A stretch of DNA of 64,000 bases from Toxonevra muliebris (taxonomy: Eukaryota; Arthropoda; Insecta; Diptera; Pallopteridae): NCBI GenBank assembly GCA_963691655.1, contig OY829327.1, forward strand, positions 55,812,079 through 55,876,078. Direction: 5' to 3'. Positions 2,466-64,000 of the stretch are shown here, piece by piece. The notes under the pieces were generated by a model that was not told the origin of the DNA, made no database searches, and worked only from the letters and a program-made list of their open reading frames with translations. The translations under genes and the position numbers were made by a program. The number at the start of each line of letters is the position of its first letter. The stretch's first letter is position 1.

Positions 2466-4852
2466 TTGATTTTGTGATGCTCGAAATATGAAAAAAATTT
2501 AATATCGGACAGTAACTAAATATCTTCATTTGAAATGTGAAAAATAATGATGAAATCAAAACCGAACAAGATCCTGTTTATGATATCTGTATCGCATTGC
2601 ATGTGCAATACGATTGTTGAGCATGAATGCAACTCTGCGCCAACATGTTGAATATTGGAAGGCAGAGAGATGGTCCCGGCTCGGCAGTCTGATTGTCATT
2701 GCATTTTGGAAAGAGCTATCGTTCGTTTTGTTGTATAGAGCAGATGAGAAGGGAATTAATAAAAAGTGGTTTTCAACATTGTTTTTCTACTTAATTCCAA
2801 GTTGTGTTTTTGTTTGTGTGTGAGGCGGGTCCTGTACTGAAACAGTATCCATGCTCCATCATAAACAACTGTTAAGTTTTGGGAAACAGAATTTCCATGT
2901 GGTTGTACGTGGATTTCGAAAGAACGAAAAACCAGAAATTATCAACAAAATCATTTGTTAAGAGAGTCAGCTCTACTTAAGTTTGGAGAGTTTAAATATC
3001 ATTGGACCTAGTGGGGACTACATTGAAAATTAAAAAGAAATATTGAAAAGCAACTGCATTTTTTTTCTAGGCTAGTTAATTATCGAACGCCACGTTGAGA
3101 AAAGATATTCACGCTTCCCATTATGTCGACACGTTCACTCCAAATACTGATATTCTTGGCATTAGCATTAGTTATAGTTTTTATTTAATCCAAAATAAAA
3201 CTTTTCTTTCTCATTTAAATATAGTAGCTTAGAATTTGATATTAGGTAATTGTTTTCTTTTTTTTTTTTGCTTTAGATTTATAAAATTATCATTATAAAA
3301 TTTAACCCAATTGCACTAATTTTTATTATAATATACTTGTATTAACCTAGCATAACTAAGAATGTGACTGAAATGGATAGCATTTTTCAAAACCAAAGTT
3401 TTAATACAAAAGGTACAGTTGTGCTCTTGTAATTATTGCCAATTATTCAATCACTTGTAGTATAAAGAACAAAAATGTAAAAACAAACACCTTTCCTTTT
3501 GCATCTGAGTAAATGCCACATTGTGTGTACATCACTATGAACTTAATATTTATACTCGTAAAATATTCTGAGCTAACAATTATATATGGGACTTAATAAA
3601 TTCCACAGCACTAAAAAGGGGGCGTAGCATGTAAAATTGTTATTGTTATTGTAAAATATATATGTAATGATCGTTTGGAAATGTAATTTTCTTAAAGAAA
3701 AAACAAAAACTAAAAGTAAAACAGTGGCGTCCAGCTCATTGCAAACGGAATTAAATGAACGCCTTCTGGAAGAACTGTGACAGTTGCTTGCATTTCTGCA
3801 TAGTATTTATATCTATGTATGGGAATGGTATATGTATATATACTATATACACATATACATAGGTATATACAATTTTATGTGCATGTGTGTGTACGTAAAT
3901 AAATGTTCAGATTGAAAACCAAGTTGTCTTTATCTGTTTCTGGTATTTTTGAAAAGGGCCAGCCCTTTTGGAATTGTCTAAACGCAACTGGAATGTTTCT
4001 GATTGTTCACGAATAGGTAATTCTTAATAAATTCTATTTTCAGTTATAAGCAGATAGTTTTTTAAATCACAGCTTCACATTGTTGTTTGAAATTACTTAA
4101 AAACTGAAAGCGAGATTTTGTGCTTGCGTTTGCGTGCGTGCGTGCGGGTGTGTGCTGGGATTGGGAAATAAGAATGTCTTGAGATTTAACGAATTGCATT
4201 TGCGATGAAAGAATGTACGGCAAGAACTGAAATTGACTAGATTTATGAATGTAGCTAAAACAGATATAAATAAAACGGTTACTGGTTACTTTTCTTCATG
4301 TATTCATAAAAAGGTAGAGTGTGTATTTGAAGATGCTGCAGTAGACAACAATTTGGTTTCGGTTATATTAATTAATGGTATCGACTCGAGTCGAGATTTG
4401 ACTTCGACAACATGTAATTATTTGCATAAATTATGTGAATGGAGTATCGGGGGCTTAATGGCTCACTTTTATTATCTACTTCAATCGGGTGAGGTAAGGC
4501 GGAAGCTCGACTTGCGAAAAGTAAAAGCTATCGATCGACTCCCTACTCGCATTCTTCATTAGAAAATTCAAGGAAAATATGGAATGGATTTAGTTTTAAG
4601 ATTCAGGAATGTGTTGTGGTTATATCGAATGTATATGTATGATCTACAAAATTGATGTCTTGTCTAAGAATAAGTTTCAATTAAGCAAACAGAATTACAA
4701 CAAATATTTATATATATGTACAATGTACATATGTATGTATAATGAAAAACAAGGAATATAAACTCAAAACAGCTTTGGGCTTTAAGTTAAATGGGAATAA
4801 TTGAGGGGATTGGTAATGGTTTTTGTTTGTTTAATTTTTGTTTCTGTTTTGT
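2466..4852. other. Intron sequence without a recognised element
   Basis: AT-rich intronic DNA. A GTGC/GTGT-rich patch lies near 4125-4155 and a short palindromic tract (tcgactcgagtcga) near 4381-4394. I see no gene, RNA gene or clear repeat copy here. Confidence 0.4.
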
Positions 4853-4881
4853 TTAGTAAGGATAATAAAAACGAGGCCCAC
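4853..4881 (-). CDS. ps: Alternative 3' end of ps by intron read-through: stop inside KH3
   Basis: If the donor at 4881-4880 is ignored, the frame continues from GAIL as GGPRFYYPY and stops at TAA (4853-4855). The product would be about 488 aa from the distal start, keeping KH1 and KH2 but ending at the GXXG loop of KH3, so it could not form a third KH fold. An ATTAAA on the minus strand at 4830-4835 could serve intronic polyadenylation. The frame is seen directly; use of this end is inference. Confidence 0.35.
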
Positions 4882-5419
4882 CTAAAATAGCGCCAACAAT
4901 TACTTCTGGAATTTCAACATTCTTTGTATCCTTGGGACCCAAATCACCAGGTGTCGGGCTCTTACTCATACCACTCAATGCTTGATTGACACCCGTGCCA
5001 GTAGCAGCGGTCAGTCCAAAGCTATTATTGTTCATTGATACGGGTGTAGCAGCCTGACCAGCCGATCCCAAGTGACGAAATGGATCGAATTGGGCCGCTG
5101 CGGCAGCAGCCTCTAGCTGTGATTGTGTTGGACGGCTTGCCGCAGCAGCAGCAGCGGCGGCGGCAGCAGCCGTGTACTGCTCCAAATTGACTTGACCAAC
5201 AGCACCAAATACATTGCCAGTGGCAGCTGAAGCAGCTGCTGCTGTCTGCTGATCGAGAGCTGAAACACCCAAATAGCTACCAAGAGTTGTGGCATGGGCA
5301 CCGTTGGCATGTGGCACACCGACACCCATACCGAGCACACCATATTTGGCAAGCACACCAAGAGCGGCGCATACCTCTGTAGTGGCGTTTTCCGAATAAC
5401 CAGATCCACGCATGGCAAC
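4882..5419 (-). CDS. ps: pasilla/Nova exon: alanine-rich linker and start of KH3
   Basis: The minus strand enters from an acceptor (ATTTCAG, AG at 5420-5421) as VAMRGSGYSENATTEVCAAL, then runs through GVLAKYGVLGMGVGVPHANG, a long linker with a 12-residue alanine run, QFDPFRHLGSA and MSKSPTPGDLG, to KNVEIPEVIVGAIL, the first strand and helix of KH3. It ends at G|GTGGGC (donor 4881-4880), leaving one base that joins the GT of exon 1027-1247 to make the first glycine of GPNG. Length is 538 nt (179 codons + 1). The linker between KH2 and KH3 is the long alanine/glycine-rich spacer characteristic of Nova proteins. Confidence 0.93.
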
Positions 5420-5493
5420 CTGAAATATTTCGCAAAGGAATTCACAAATTTAGAATTGCAACATACATTTAACATAATCAGACGTTAACTCAC

Positions 5494-6134
5494 TTTAATG
5501 TGCTCTAGCAATTGCGTAGCTACAGCTAAGTTAGGAGCTGGGTTTGGAGAGCCCAAGTTTAATGATAAATTAATGCCCGTGCCATTGACTAAAAGCCCTG
5601 CAGCGGTGGCGGCGCCACCGATTGCCGATCCCAAAGTCGAATTCAATGAGGCGGTACTCGAGTTAATGGCATTCTGATTGGTTGCATATGGCGAACCGGT
5701 CGGATTGAAATTGGCCACCGGCCCATTTATATCAGCATATGAGACATTCAGGCAAGCACCTGATTGCGGATCTTCGACGATCTTCGACAAGATCATTTTG
5801 CAGGCATTTTTATTGTTCTCCTTATCACCGATAATCGTAATGCAGCGCTCCTGCAATGAAATATCTTTCGGTTTCTGCGAGATCTGCACGTAAGAACCGC
5901 TTTCTTCCTTAATTTGTTTAATGAAAGCACCACCCTTGCCGATGATCATACCAGCCGTGGAATTGGGCACCAAAATCTTTACTTGTTTGTCACGTTCCTG
6001 TTGCTGTTTCGTTTCAACATCCATGATCTTTGTTGTTAAATCGGGTTTCTCGCGTATTTTATCCATAATAAAATCAACCACCGTCATGATACCGTCAATT
6101 GAGCCAGTGATGAGGCATACTCGTTCATTGGTAC
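5494..6134 (-). CDS. ps: pasilla/Nova exon: end of KH1, KH2 and linker
   Basis: From the acceptor (TTTTAAG, AG at 6135-6136) the frame reads TNERVCLITGSIDGIMTVVD, completing KH1. It then gives KH2: VKILVPNSTAGMIIGKGGAF with the GXXG loop GKGG, SYVQISQKPKDISLQERCIT, and the Nova hallmark EDPQSGACLNVSYADINGPV followed by NPTGSPYA. The exon ends LLEHIK at donor GTGAGT (5493 downward), and the next exon supplies VAM. The 641 nt are 2 + 213 codons. Read-through of the donor would add only VS before a stop. KH2 binds YCAY RNA in the Nova family. Confidence 0.95.
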
Positions 6135-6202
6135 CTTAAAACGAACGAAGAAAGATAATTTAAATAAAGGTCAAGTAAAGGTTAAATCAAGGTGCAACTA
6201 AC

Positions 6203-33870: not shown

Positions 33871-36662
33871 GTACACGGGTTCAATAATTGCTCCCATTAC
33901 AATTTTTTAATTTAAACCCTATTTAGTAGACGTCCAACTAAAGTACTTTGAATTACCATAATTATTATTTACTTTAATTTGATTTTTGGATATATTTGAT
34001 GAATAAACAATTGAATATAGCTCCCGTTTAAAATAAATTTTTGAATTCATGTGAAGCAATATTTAAAAATATAAAGCAAAAAAATTAGGTTTAAGTAAAT
34101 AATATTACGACATAAGTAAATCTTTCTACTTTGTTAAAAATTTAGAAATTGAAAATCATGAAATATTTTATTTAGTATTATAATTTTTTGACCACTGTGC
34201 AGCAATTTTCAAGGTTGTCGTTGAATATTTGAACAAATTTTTATTTTATTTTATTTTTAAATAATCAAAATAAAATATAGAAAGAAATAAAACGCGCGTG
34301 TGTAAAAGCACAAATACCACAACAACAACAACACGAAATAAGAGAGACAAAGAGAGAGGGAGATAGAGAGAGGCAGAAGAAAAGAGATAGAGAGCGAAAA
34401 TATAATAAAAACACATTTTTATATTTCAAGTGCACTTTTTGTGTGATAATTTTTTCATGATGATATTGCGGCAACAAAAATGAACAGAAAAAGCTTTTTC
34501 CTTCTTTTTATGAGTTTTCTAGTTAGGTTTCTTCTTCTTTTTTTTTAATGTATGCAAATTATATTTTCGTTTTTACTTTTTTCATGTGTATATGTATTTT
34601 TTAACATAGTTTTGTATTAACTTGAGGAACAAATCTTTTTAAGTAAAATTAGAACAAGAACAAGCAATAATTTTGCCGCCAAATCGTACCAAAAACTAGA
34701 AAAATAACTAGTAATATTGATAATAATACAAATAGAAAAGAAAACGCGTACGCGAAATTGTGAACGAACGAAAAGAACGCGAACTAAAATCGCACTAAAA
34801 AAGATGAAGCGCCTAAAAGGCGAAAAGAGTTAAGAGCGTCTGAGAGTTCAATTTTTTGGGGAGAAGTTAAGCTTTGCTATTATTGTGGAGCAATGTGAGC
34901 GCACAATAATGAGCACTAAAGCGGCCAGAAGCAGCAGCCAACAACAGCAGTCAACAGCAACAACGTCAAAGTCAAAGCCAACAAGACAACAACATCGACA
35001 TCGACATCAACAATGATGATAAAAAATCGTTAGAGCGTAAGTGAGTAAGTGAGAGAGAGAAAGAGTACAAGCTATCTTTTTTATTAAAAAAAAATAATTT
35101 TTTTTTATGATTTTAACAGCAAAAAAATATAATATTTTAACTTAACAAAGCACTTCATTAACCGCCACACTCTCCTCACCGAAAACAGCAAAAATTTACC
35201 AACTTTATATAGAGAGACAAACACTCTGCTGCCAACGCGAATTAGATAAGCGAAAAGCTCGTCGAGCTGTTAGCTTCTCAGCGCATCCATAATTTCATAT
35301 GCGTGCACAGTGATCATGTTTGTGTAAGTGATTAGTGTATGTGTGTGAGTTTTTTAACATATAATTTTTATTATTACTAAATACGCTCTTGTTGATTTTC
35401 GTTTCGTTTAGTTTTTTTTTTTTTTTTTGCTGTTGATTGTGATGAAGTAATTATTATTGCCAATCACTCATAAAAGCATACACACTCATACATTCCAACA
35501 CAAATACCTATACGTACATAGAAATGAACTTGTATGTATGTAGCTCTAGGCATTTTTTTGAATTCTACAATTTTCTGTTCTTCTTTTCTTCTATTGTACC
35601 TATTTTGTATTTCTTAATATTTTGCTGACGTAATTCTTCGCAGCAAGCAAACATAAAAAAGAAAATCAAAGGAATTCATAATATTATATCATTAATTTTT
35701 CTCAGTGTATTCTAAGCTTATGCTACTTGGCAATTAGTTTTCTTTTCTTTTTTTTACCGAATGCTGAATTCTTTAGCAAGTTTTTAGTTGTTGTTAATTT
35801 GTGTGTTCTTCTTGCCACATTGTTATTGCTTTTGGGCACATGTTAAGCTTGTTGTTGTTTTTTCTTTTATTGCTACTGCTGCCAAAACCAAAATAATTAC
35901 CTATGCGTGTGTTTTCTATAGGAGATTCATAGATATTTTTCTATTTTTATTTATTTTTTTCTATAATTTACCTCTTGTCTCCTATACAAATGTAAATTTA
36001 TCTCACCCTGTTCGATTTGCTAGTTAAATTATATGTAAATTTATATATTCTAAAATCAAGGGCAGCAGTTCCATTAAACAAATATTCCAATAATTAAAAT
36101 GAAATTATCAGTGTAATTAATAGTTTATATAAAATTTCCTTTGAGTTTTTTTCTAGAATCTTTAATGTTAAACGAAGTAAATAAGAGCTGGCCTAAGGTA
36201 TTGAATATTTTATTAAACAAATTTTTCAACACACTCGGGGGTTAAGCTTACAGAATTATTGCTGGAACTCAAATTTTGTGTTGCGATTTTAAATTTTTAA
36301 GTACCTAACATCAATTTCAACTACGTTTGTGCCACTATTATTGATTAGTCACTTTAAACAACTGCGAACTAAAGTCTTGGAAAATGCAGTTAACACCTTT
36401 TCTTCTATAAATGCACTTGACAAAATTCAGACAACAAAATTTCAAAACTATTTGAAAAGTTTGAAACCGTATCAAAGATGCAGTTAGAAAATAATTTCGG
36501 CTAGTTAAACAAAAAATGTGCTTGGATGGGGAATTGATACCAGTTTGATGCCTACGTAAAGACTAAGGATGAGAAAAAGATATCGATATTTTTCGATAAT
36601 TATCGTTAAGGAATAATATCGTAATGTATCAGCAGCGTTTGTTGTTAACGATAAATTGTAGT
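33871..36662. other. Intron with a less AT-rich block
   Basis: Mostly AT-rich, with a GA-rich tract at 34335-34400 and T runs at 35410-35430. Within it, 34740-35045 and 35160-35330 are distinctly richer in G+C than their surroundings (see the separate entry for the first block). Confidence 0.4.
34740..35037 (+). other. Possible noncoding exon (plus strand) or conserved regulatory block
   Basis: The plus strand has a CAA/CAG-rich, relatively GC-rich stretch (34920-35010) resembling fly 5' UTRs. It ends with a strong donor-like sequence, GAGC|GTAAGTGAG at about 35037. No open frame of note. It could be the first exon of an antisense or nested transcript, or simply an enhancer. A TATATAAAG on the minus strand at about 35202-35210 is an alternative hint of a promoter facing the other way. 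Weak evidence. Confidence 0.25.
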
Positions 36663-37209
36663 GTGATGACTACATTTGTTCATTTACCTGTTTATATATT
36701 ACTTCAAATAACGAAATTGACAGGAACTTAAGTCATGACTTTGAAAATTAACCTCTAGATTTAATTTTTATAGTCTCCTAAAAAACTATCATGAACTGAT
36801 CGAATGGGGACCGTTCAGAAAAAATGACACCTATAATCATTTTCTCACAAGCACACACACTCTCTCATGTACTAGACTTTCAAATAACGAATAACGTTAT
36901 GCAAATAACGTTATGCAGACTAGCTACAATGAGGAAAAAACAACAACATAAGTATATAGAACGGTAGTGGTAGTTTCTTTCAATATCTCTGTTCAGTGAA
37001 GATATTTGGAATCAAATCTGTAATTCTGGGTTATGATTTCAAATACTAGTAGTTTATATAGGATATTGAAAGATTAAGAACTATCACTAAGATCACTGAT
37101 GAGGAATTGTGGCGGATTCCGAAACGGCCGTCTGATTTGCCCGTCTCTATATACATTGTTGTTGTGATGACTACATTTGTTCTTTGACCTGTTTATATAT
37201 AATTTCAGA
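36663..37209 (+). repeat. Retrozyme-like repeat, diverged single copy in ps intron
   Basis: This segment is the reverse complement of the ~488-bp unit tandemly repeated at 62672-64000. It holds one full unit plus a short overlap: GATGACTACATTTGTTC occurs at 36665 and again at 37166, about 501 bp apart. The copy differs by substitutions and a small internal duplication (AATAACGTTATGCA twice near 36893-36920), yet the hammerhead core at 37090-37138 is identical to that of the array. Confidence 0.85.
37090..37138 (+). ncRNA. Type I hammerhead ribozyme candidate (single copy)
   Basis: In order: AGATCA (stem I, 37090-37095), CTGATGAG (37096-37103), a stem II hairpin GGAAT/ATTCC with an 8-nt loop, CGAAAC (37120-37125), GGCC (37126-37129), the GTC cleavage triplet (37130-37132) and TGATTT (37133-37138), which pairs with AGATCA in six pairs including one G-U. 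All invariant hammerhead core bases are present. Stem III is only two pairs (A-U, C-G) closed by GGCC, as in hammerheads of Penelope-like elements and satellite repeats, which often work as dimers. Confidence 0.8.
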
Positions 37210-37276
37210 TAAATTTTGATATTGACTGAAACATACAGATCAGTAAAAATTTATACTACTGATTTATTTTGCATAT

Positions 37277-47812: not shown

Positions 47813-48190
47813 TTAAAAGCTAAAAAAATCAAGGCCTTAGTGATTAGCGAAGGCTCAAAGCTAAGTTCAAGTTTCCGCATAATGTTCTGACGTCACACTA
47901 ATAAAAAAAAATATCAGAAAAATACAACTGCATTGATGGTACAATAGTAGTAAAGGCCATTCATGTTGTTCGTCGTGGAAAGCGTTAGATAAAAATCCGA
48001 TACCGAAAATAATGATTATTTTACAAAATGGGATAAATCGCCTTGTTCCAAATGTCGGAGGGCATAATTAAATATACCTAAATGATACTGGTTACATTCT
48101 TTACTGAAGCCAGTAAAGATTTTTATTTTGTGAGCGTTACCCCCGAAAAATAAAATTAATTATTATACATAGATTCTTATTTTTTTATTC

Positions 48191-61913: not shown

Positions 61914-62671
61914 TAATTTCTAAGTCGGATCCACAAAATATATCATTGTATTCACTTATGCATCCAGGGGGGATTTAGGATCTGTTTTATGAAAATTAAT
62001 TATGGGTGTTTTCTTCTCATAAAAAGCCCCTCCCCTCTCCGAAACAAATTCTTGGCTACGGCCTTATTAGGGTACGTATGTAACAGAATAATAAGAATGA
62101 CCGAGCATAGTAGATATGTTATTAAAAGAGAAGGACAACAAAATACGAGTCATATCGTCGGGTGACAACCAGAAGAACCACGAATGCTGTTGTCTCGCGA
62201 AAACACAAACTAAAATTTGAACTTTTTTAAAGTTGCTACATACATATATACAATAAGCGCTTTGTGAAAAGAAAAATTGCGATTACAAGTTCAAAAAATG
62301 GGAGTTAAGTAGAATCAGGGTTTCGTAAACTACGATTCGCCAATTTAATATTATTTGTCATATTTAACGCAAAAGTGGATAGCGAGGTTGCGACATTTCC
62401 ATGAACAGTCATGGCAACAGAATGATTTTGTCGATTATCACAAGTTTGTGGTAATAAATACCCCATAAAGATAAGATCGATTTGAATTTGATTTAAAATA
62501 TAATTAAATTTAAGTTCATTTTATTATGTTACAAAAATGAGTCTCTTTTCACTTCAGCTACTTTAAGCGTTCTGTGTAGAAAGTTATTGTTTACTACAGT
62601 AAGTGGCAACAAAAACGATTTATAGTTAGTGCAATTTAACTAATTAACAGTGTTGGAAAATGAAAATTATA
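61914..62671. other. Sequence left of the tandem array
   Basis: AT-rich with no recognised gene. The last ~25 bp before the array weakly resemble the end of a repeat unit, so the array edge is not sharp. Confidence 0.35.
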
Positions 62672-62742
62672 ATTGAAGTTATATATAAACAGGTTAATGA
62701 ACAAATGTAGTCATCACAACAACAATGTATATAGAGACGGGC

Positions 62743-62791
62743 AAATCAGACGGCCGTTTCGGAATCCGCCACAATTCCTCATCAGTGATCT
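62743..62791 (-). ncRNA. Type I hammerhead ribozyme, unit 1
   Basis: Minus strand: AGATCA (62791-62786), CTGATGAG (62785-62778), stem II GGAAT/ATTCC around loop TGTGGCGG, CGAAAC (62761-62756), GGCC, cleavage triplet GTC (62751-62749) and TGATTT (62748-62743) pairing with AGATCA. Predicted cut between 62749 and 62748. All conserved core bases are present. Stem III has two pairs and a GGCC loop. Because ACGGCCGT is self-complementary, a dimeric form with a longer stem III is also possible. Confidence 0.85.
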
Positions 62792-63230
62792 TAGTGGTAG
62801 TTCTTAATCTTTCAATATCCCATATAAGCTACTAATATTTGAAATCATAACCCAGAATTATGGATTTGATTCCAAATATCTTCACTGAATAGTGATATTG
62901 AAAGAAACTACCACTACCGTTCTATACACTTATGTTGTTGTTTTTTTCCCATCGTAGCTAGTCTGCATAACAGTTCGTTATTTGAAAGTCTAGTACATGG
63001 GAGAGTGTGTGTGTGTGAGAAAATGATTCTAGGTGTCATTTTTTCTGAACGGTCCCCATTCGATCAGTTCATGATAGTTTTTTTTTTAGGAGACTATGAA
63101 AATTAAATCTAGAGGTTAATTTTTCAAAGTCATGACTTAAGTTCATGTTAATTTCGTTATTTGAAGTTATATATAAACAGGTTAATGAACAAATGTAGTC
63201 ATCACAACAACAATGTATATAGAGACGGGC

Positions 63231-63279
63231 AAATCAGACGGCCGTTTCGGAATCCGCCACAATTCCTCATCAGTGATCT
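63231..63279 (-). ncRNA. Type I hammerhead ribozyme, unit 2
   Basis: Same sequence as in unit 1, 488 bp further on: CTGATGAG at 63273-63266, predicted cut between 63237 and 63236. Cleavage here and in unit 1 would release a 488-nt RNA. Confidence 0.85.
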
Positions 63280-63719
63280 TAGTGGTAGTTCTTAATCTTT
63301 CAATATCCCATATAAGCTACTAATATTTGAAATCATAACCCAGAATTATGGATTTGATTCCAAATATCTTCACTGAATAGTGATATTGAAAGAAACTACC
63401 ACTACCGTTCTATACACTTATGTTGTTGTTTTTTTCCCATCGTAGCTAGTCTGCATAACAGTTCGTTATTTGAAAGTCTAGTACATGGGAGAGTGTGTGT
63501 GTGTGAGAAAATGATTCTAGGTGTCATTTTTTCTGAACGGTCCCCATTCGATCAGTTCATGATAGTTTTTTTTTTTAGGAGACTATGAAAATTAAATCTA
63601 GAGGTTAATTTTTCAAAGTCATGACTTAAGTTCATGTTAATTTCGTTATTTGAAGTTATATATAAACAGGTTAATGAACAAATGTAGTCATCACAACAAC
63701 AATGTATATAGAGACGGGC

Positions 63720-63768
63720 AAATCAGACGGCCGTTTCGGAATCCGCCACAATTCCTCATCAGTGATCT
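63720..63768 (-). ncRNA. Type I hammerhead ribozyme, unit 3
   Basis: Same core again, 489 bp beyond unit 2 (CTGATGAG at 63762-63755). The surrounding unit continues past the window end. Confidence 0.85.
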
Positions 63769-64000
63769 TAGTGGTAGTTCTTAATCTTTCAATATCCCAT
63801 ATAAGCTACTAATATTTGAAATCATAACCCAGAATTATGGATTTGATTCCAAATATCTTCACTGAATAGTGATATTGAAAGAAACTACCACTACCGTTCT
63901 ATACACTTATGTTGTTGTTTTTTTCCCATCGTAGCTAGTCTGCATAACAGTTCGTTATTTGAAAGTCTAGTACATGGGAGAGTGTGTGTGTGTGAGAAAA

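Follow-up and report, generated by a model that had tools for sequence, protein, structure and literature searches.

The right end of the window, that is, of the whole stretch of 64,000 nt of the Toxonevra muliebris genome that was analyzed, is occupied by a minus-strand tandem array of a short sequence repeat. TRF places it at positions 62673-64000, with a period of 489, 2.7 copies and 99% matches, in agreement with the tandem repeats of ~488 bp claimed in a preliminary description of this DNA, and the length of the unit is 488 or 489 bp. The array extends ~1.4 kb past the end of the window, and the whole element (C2:55874748-55877505) comprises 5.3 units and then a 158-bp inverted (head-to-head) arm. 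A second copy of the repeat lies inside the window, on the plus strand. The preliminary description had recognized the array, and it contained neither this second copy, nor the inverted arm, nor the two preferred 3′ ends, sites A and B, which are treated below. Elsewhere in the window, positions 4853-6135 of the minus strand hold exons resembling those of a Nova-type KH-domain RNA-binding protein, which we take to be pasilla-type; the exon searched (5485-6135) finds, among mostly unnamed matches, a Drosophila simulans protein with 90% likeness over 62%. The features of both copies are listed here, with unit positions counted up to 488, position 1 being at the cleavage point.

62670..64000, minus strand: retrozyme array, in-window part (TRF, blast)
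62663..62675, no strand: left copy of the array TSD, AAAATTATAATTG, at most 13 bp, some of which may overlap the end of the element; its right counterpart is outside the window, at L009 ~4003-4015
62670..62673, minus strand: 3′ end of the array, at site A (unit 76-79, ending in TATAACTTCAA), read as a start of reverse transcription
62743..62791, minus strand: hammerhead motif 1, from stem I to stem I, expected cleavage 62749/62748
63231..63279, minus strand: hammerhead motif 2, expected cleavage 63237/63236
63720..63768, minus strand: hammerhead motif 3, expected cleavage 63726/63725
62749..63236, minus strand: a single unit of 488 nt, bounded by the expected cleavage points of motifs 1 and 2, with z = -7.9 for its predicted fold
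62792..62917, minus strand: predicted long imperfect hairpin (unit ~320-445), directly 5′ of the ribozyme stem I
63157..63161, minus strand: site A in the first complete unit (unit 76-80)
63068..63082, minus strand: site B (unit 155-169), the second preferred 3′ end, ending in CTCCTAAAAAACTATCATGAA in most copies
36658..37207, plus strand: second copy, 1.1 unit, with one intact hammerhead motif and its 3′ end at A
36650..36657, no strand: left copy of the TSD of the second copy, GATAAATT; right copy at 37208-37215

The type I hammerhead motif that had been claimed for each of the three minus-strand units is indeed present in all of them. A 37-nt hammerhead sequence, CTGATGAGGAATTGTGGCGGATTCCGAAACGGCCGTC, occurs exactly at 62749-62785, 63237-63273 and 63726-63762 of the minus strand, and once more at 37096-37132 of the plus strand, with a chance expectation of 0.00 (100 shuffles). 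A descriptor demanding a stem I of at least 5 bp, CUGANGA, a stem II of at least 4 bp, GAAA, a short stem III and NUH matched the window four times, at these same four sites, and gave 0 matches in 100 Markov windows. By sequence, the motif shows the core CUGAUGA / GAAA / GUC, a stem I of 6 bp (AGAUCA/UGAUUU, with one G-U), a stem II formed by GGAAU/AUUCC and a stem III consisting of a single C-G beside an A-U with a GGCC tetraloop, that is, the conserved core, the three helices and the open stem I of type I hammerheads. This arrangement of stem III makes ACGGCCGU palindromic. The comparison with Rfam was only partly favorable: on 66 bases, Hammerhead_1 (RF00163) aligned from end to end (model positions 1-45 of 45, E 2.6e-4), with a score of 23.8 bits that lies below the curated cut-off of 34, and Rfam at gathering thresholds gave no match. 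On 1.5 kb, Rfam returned 17 weak matches, with the hammerhead among none of them; these (SNORD24, miRNAs and others) were below cut-off and were taken as chance or hairpin effects. A pattern search of viral contigs gave 0 matches.

The low score would be expected if this were a true retrozyme family in which one motif by itself had no activity or a very slow one, so that cleavage would need a dimer or would barely take place, and so would the one-pair stem III and palindromic GGCC loop, which recall the poorly cleaving newt and axolotl monomers (HHR_Amex1) presented in passages of PMC7229834 as suggestive of dimer action. The comparison with HHR_Amex1 covered stem III with its loop and the length of the repeat, which is ~330 bp there and 488 here. 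Such a weak single ribozyme is nevertheless considered unlikely, given that 64 of the 78 motif instances in the sampled loci are identical (in a sample biased toward intact motifs) and that the ACGGCCGU palindrome fits dimeric activity. Judged by their sequence, the array units with intact type I motifs are expected to be self-cleaving. Hammerheads have been described in other dipterans (Musca, Rhagoletis, Hermetia and D. pseudoobscura), in the available portion of PMC7936874 as type III, whereas the motif of this fly is of type I.

Apart from the ribozyme, the unit is simple. A strongly self-paired fold is predicted for its RNA (z -7.9, with 0 of 100 shuffles equally stable), the repeats seen in the array are unit-length ones only, and an ORF scan found no frame of at least 150 aa in the array, so the retrozyme has no long ORF. 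Without a long frame, the unit lacks the reverse transcriptase and GIY-YIG domains that an autonomous Penelope-like element (PLE) encodes. A short tandem repeat, a type I hammerhead and the lack of a long ORF are together among the hallmarks of metazoan non-LTR retrozymes.

The unit is also dispersed, as a check of copy number established. A search of the genome (491 Mb) with a 44-nt motif, allowing up to 3 mismatches, gave 3,027 places (0 for the reversed-pattern control), where places count units and not insertions. An equally long neighbor of the motif (unit 10-53) was found at 2,796 places, a 27-mer at unit 41-67 (2 mismatches) at 2,036 and a 42-mer at unit 89-130 at 2,351; with 3,027 against 2,796 places, the idea that the motif is better conserved than its flanks is weak.

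The boundaries of the insertions were mapped in 60 loci plus the other copy of the window. The loci comprise the array of the window itself (L009), 39 loci from the first 18 Mb of contig C1 that were picked for an exact match to the 44-nt motif (L010-L048), and 20 anchor loci with no exact motif match listed (L049-L068). The 60 mapped 3′ ends fall mostly at two sites of the unit: 24 in A (55-95, a range set by eye on the data), with 18 of these at 73-88, and 29 in B (145-180), all of them at 152-176, which gives 53 ends in A or B and 7 elsewhere. The 75 5′ ends, for their part, scatter along the unit. A hot spot of 5′ ends at unit 249-254 (7 of the 75, 0.9 expected; window 62983-62988 in the first unit) coincides with TTCAAATAACGAA, a stretch that recurs at site A (72-84), and perhaps marks a place where reverse transcriptase stops or where transcripts start, or else a site of microhomology. 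The targets of insertion are modestly AT-rich, with an A+T content of 0.61-0.86 in the first 16 outward bases against a background of 0.67. Flanking repeats of at least 10 bp were found in 12 of 43 elements, compared with 1% of mispaired flanks (L029 was counted in two parts, divided at a run of N); dispersal in many copies and TSDs of more than 4 bp are traits of retrozymes too. Units that are tandem and homogeneous are likewise what ordinary satellite DNA would show if it had spread by unequal exchange with the hammerhead as an incidental passenger. However, thousands of dispersed sites, non-integer numbers of units, 3′ ends at preferred positions and TSDs that enclose whole arrays do not fit a plain satellite, which is ruled out by the dispersal and the TSDs. 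The preliminary description had left the choice between a retrozyme and a ribozyme satellite; the first term holds, for a dispersed, TSD-flanked and retro-inserted repeat, and the second, in the sense of one local array, does not. The best reading of the repeat is therefore a family of non-LTR retrozymes, of a kind already known and unusually informative about its mechanism.

Among 62 clusters, 45 have both ends inside the locus; the 17 left out include the head-to-head L055 and L058, together with L050, an incomplete case with two opposed pieces. Nine of the 45 complete elements are head-to-head, the window array among them, and none is tail-to-tail. In all nine, one arm ends at A and the other at B (P 0.0016 under random mixing of ends), although the A ends of three of them (L047, L019 and L011) lie at 55-70, outside 73-88. 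The remaining 36 complete clusters have a single orientation (14 A, 19 B and 3 other). Among the incomplete head-to-head elements, L055 has one A and one B end and L058 has its outer 3′ end at 34, which is neither. Two 3′ ends, with one of each in head-to-head inserts, are what mobilization by a PLE would leave, a pattern seen in 9/9 complete cases and from which L058 deviates.

A LINE could also be thought of as the mobilizing element, with the retrozyme behaving like a SINE and the inverted arms arising by ordinary twin priming. 5′ truncation and TSDs of ~8-14 bp are LINE traits, and the truncation and TSDs of the retrozyme would fit LINEs too. In ordinary twin priming, however, the inverted arm has an outer end that varies, whereas here that end is the other preferred 3′ end in 9/9 complete cases, and the listed 3′ ends carry neither a simple-repeat tail nor poly(A) beyond a short A run at B. 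These observations make a LINE quite improbable, and favor a PLE-type enzyme.

The sampled loci also bear on the RNA template. Complete units of the same array differ at 0-2 columns (36 pairs, 8 arrays), against a median of 10 differences for the 399 pairs between loci (5th percentile 0, some pairs being identical). An anchor set 40 nt past the cleavage point gave 38 loci, up to C1:21.3 Mb. The sequence continues across that point in 35 of them, as read in the DNA for 32 and as deduced from listed positions for 3 (two from the motif list and L052 from the spacing of two listed anchors), whereas L055 and L067 end short of it and L062 is ambiguous. Most templates were therefore joined at this point, either as circles or as multimers, and cut linear monomers are unsupported as the chief template. 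On the other hand, there is a slight excess of 5′ ends no more than 6 nt away from the cleavage point (6 of 75, with 1.8 expected), which suggests that some templates may be cut linear RNAs. In the head-to-head elements, the two arms of L029 are alike (0 differences in 466 positions, ~3% to other loci), those of L009 are weakly informative (1 difference in 142) and those of L019 show 14 differences in 208; in the other arms, the overlap is short or the difference is not clearly below the level between loci.

Alternatively, the same element could have a linear multimeric template, in the form of an array transcript that was left uncut or was cut only in part, with its identical units coming from homogeneous source arrays. 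Crossing the joined cleavage point needs no circle by itself, and the 5′ ends near that point lean in the same direction, as do the in vitro results for the Anolis PLE given in passages of PMC11167929, where mutants of the hammerhead left insertion unchanged and unprocessed RNA was the main substrate. A linear multimer is regarded as possible though less likely, since the near-identity of the units within each array, in spite of a diverse family, would call for another homogenizing step.

The genome also contains PLEs, at the loci listed here.

C1:84950500-84954300: PLE locus L069
C2:62381110: PLE locus
C3:82087350, C4:32220057 and C60:40584: PLE loci
C14:339-5402: PLE locus

A GIY-YIG search gave 12 matches, 7 of them above cut-off, and the 758-aa open frame of L069 combines RVT_1 with a GIY-YIG domain (20.8 bits, just under the cut-off of 22.6). 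According to a protein search, in which 59 of 545 candidates were scored, the PLEs with long open frames belong to at least three families, with frames of 827, 866 and 859 aa. Three copies of family 2 with 866-aa open frames score identically, which suggests recent activity. The named relatives of the PLE protein are flies (Eurosta, Rhagoletis, Haematobia, Calliphora, Musca and Episyrphus). Downstream of the L069 frame, CTGAGGATGGTCTTAAAAAGACCGAAACGCGTAGGAG is read as a minimal hammerhead, with a chance expectation of 0.23 for the pattern and no recognition by Rfam, and families 2 and 3 contain similar hammerhead-like motifs, found in a pattern search that had no control. Judged by pattern, PLEs with a minimal hammerhead-like motif thus exist alongside the retrozyme in one genome, another trait of metazoan non-LTR retrozymes. 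In family 1, 23 3′ ends from 20 loci comprise 14 untailed and 9 tailed ends, with a tail of ~30 nt (L082 was counted as tailed despite its altered junction), and all four head-to-head copies (L072, L078, L083 and L090) have one end of each kind. The 10 ends of family 2 are divided equally, 5 untailed and 5 tailed, with L101, which ends inside the tail, counted as untailed. These fly families match the anatomy of PLEs given in passages of PMC3846280, with an optional tail on one of the two inverted ends (pLTRs) and TSDs of 8-10 bp. A further stretch of the window, 48002-48164, is 68% alike to part of L077 (E 7e-9); the match lies beyond the PLE tail of L077, so it is probably another repeat and not a PLE.

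Retrozyme and PLEs share a common grammar: two 3′ ends, head-to-head inserts that pair the two, TSDs and 5′ truncation. In passages of PMC11167929 and PMC3846280, PLEs are likewise credited with two internal starts of reverse transcription, head-to-head repeats and a hammerhead, and the first of these sources reports for the Anolis PLE in vitro that both strands are extended from the two internal starts, with a preference for AT-rich ATT targets. The retrozyme differs from PLEs in the lack of a long ORF, in the presence of a stem III, if a short one, in its hammerhead, and in a spacing between A and B of ~85 nt, compared with ~30 between the PLE ends.

At the level of sequence, the connection is looser. 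Within the unit, the windows of the untailed PLE end, which were chosen after the likeness had been spotted by eye, match best at site A (unit 78, rank 1/488), and the score of this site lies within controls, with shuffled units scoring as high in 93/150 cases, or 57/150 for family 2 alone. Site B does not match the tailed PLE end (unit 165, rank 145/488), and the likeness of start sites between retrozyme and PLE is only suggestive. Nor was there any convincing match in a search for DNA common to both: over 90 nt of the family-1 end, 13/500 controls were as good, and for two shorter stretches 374/500 and 417/500. In one instance (L055/L104, C1:5495200-5496100), a head-to-head retrozyme has inserted into the tail of a PLE of family 2, flanked by the 12-bp TSD AATACATAAATT, a single case among 60 loci that was noticed after the fact; the PLE tail is reported, as told in part of PMC11167929, to be what the D. 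virilis endonuclease requires for recognition. The reverse arrangement also exists, a head-to-head family-1 PLE inside a retrozyme array (L090, 1-1528), and the candidate chimera of Penelope and retrozyme by template switching at L087/L090 was rejected, as the PLE is nested in the retrozyme with a 12-bp TSD, ACAATGTATATA. With a common grammar and a weak link in sequence, the type of enzyme can be inferred with fair confidence and no particular family is assigned to it.

The main reading is thus a non-autonomous non-LTR retrozyme, the ribozyme-made circular or multimeric RNA of which would be copied in trans by a PLE-type enzyme, with a probability of roughly 0.75. Minus-strand multimeric transcripts would be cut by the type I hammerheads into 488-nt units, which a ligation step would turn into circles. 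A PLE reverse transcriptase/GIY-YIG endonuclease, presumably acting in trans, would open the target, and the synthesis of cDNA would start inside the RNA at A or B, the two fixed 3′ ends that are observed. Synthesis crosses the joined cleavage point in most sampled copies, and would often end within one turn and sometimes after several. The outcome is arrays whose units are nearly identical and whose 5′ ends scatter, each inside a single pair of TSDs, probably with a circle rather than a multimer as template. When both strands of the target prime, one at A and the other at B, the head-to-head inserts that are seen would result. A more specific version of this reading, which is mildly favored, sees the retrozyme as parasitic on Penelope-type machinery, with two internal starts, one per opened strand, and reverse transcription rolling round an RNA circle.

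Metazoan retrozymes with type I hammerheads are known, with insects mentioned among their hosts in general terms, and PLEs have been put forward as candidate movers (passages of PMC7229834 and PMC7761336). According to the available portion of Cervera and de la Pena 2020 (PMC7229834), metazoan non-LTR retrozymes give circles of ~170-400 nt from repeats of 150-450 bp, compared with the unit of 488 nt found here, and the two preferred 3′ ends, the 5′ truncation and the A/B head-to-head inserts of the fly retrozyme were not found in that portion. In passages of PMC7761336, retrozyme repeats are said to show no motif indicating the mobilizing element, and multi-unit cDNAs are proposed to derive from circles. 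Both the mobilizing enzyme of animal retrozymes and the role of circular RNA as template are left open in those parts of the two papers, and none of the open-access literature found joins retrozymes, target-primed reverse transcription, Penelope-like elements and circular RNA. The present family is a further retrozyme with a type I hammerhead, from a fly. Its copies number in the thousands, and many of them are young and have clear boundaries; occurring alongside PLEs with long frames in a genome assembled into large contigs, they make both questions directly testable. Parasitism of Penelope-type machinery, if true, would bring the arrays, with their truncated 5′ ends and their TSDs, and the A/B inserts under one explanation, and might hold for animal retrozymes generally.
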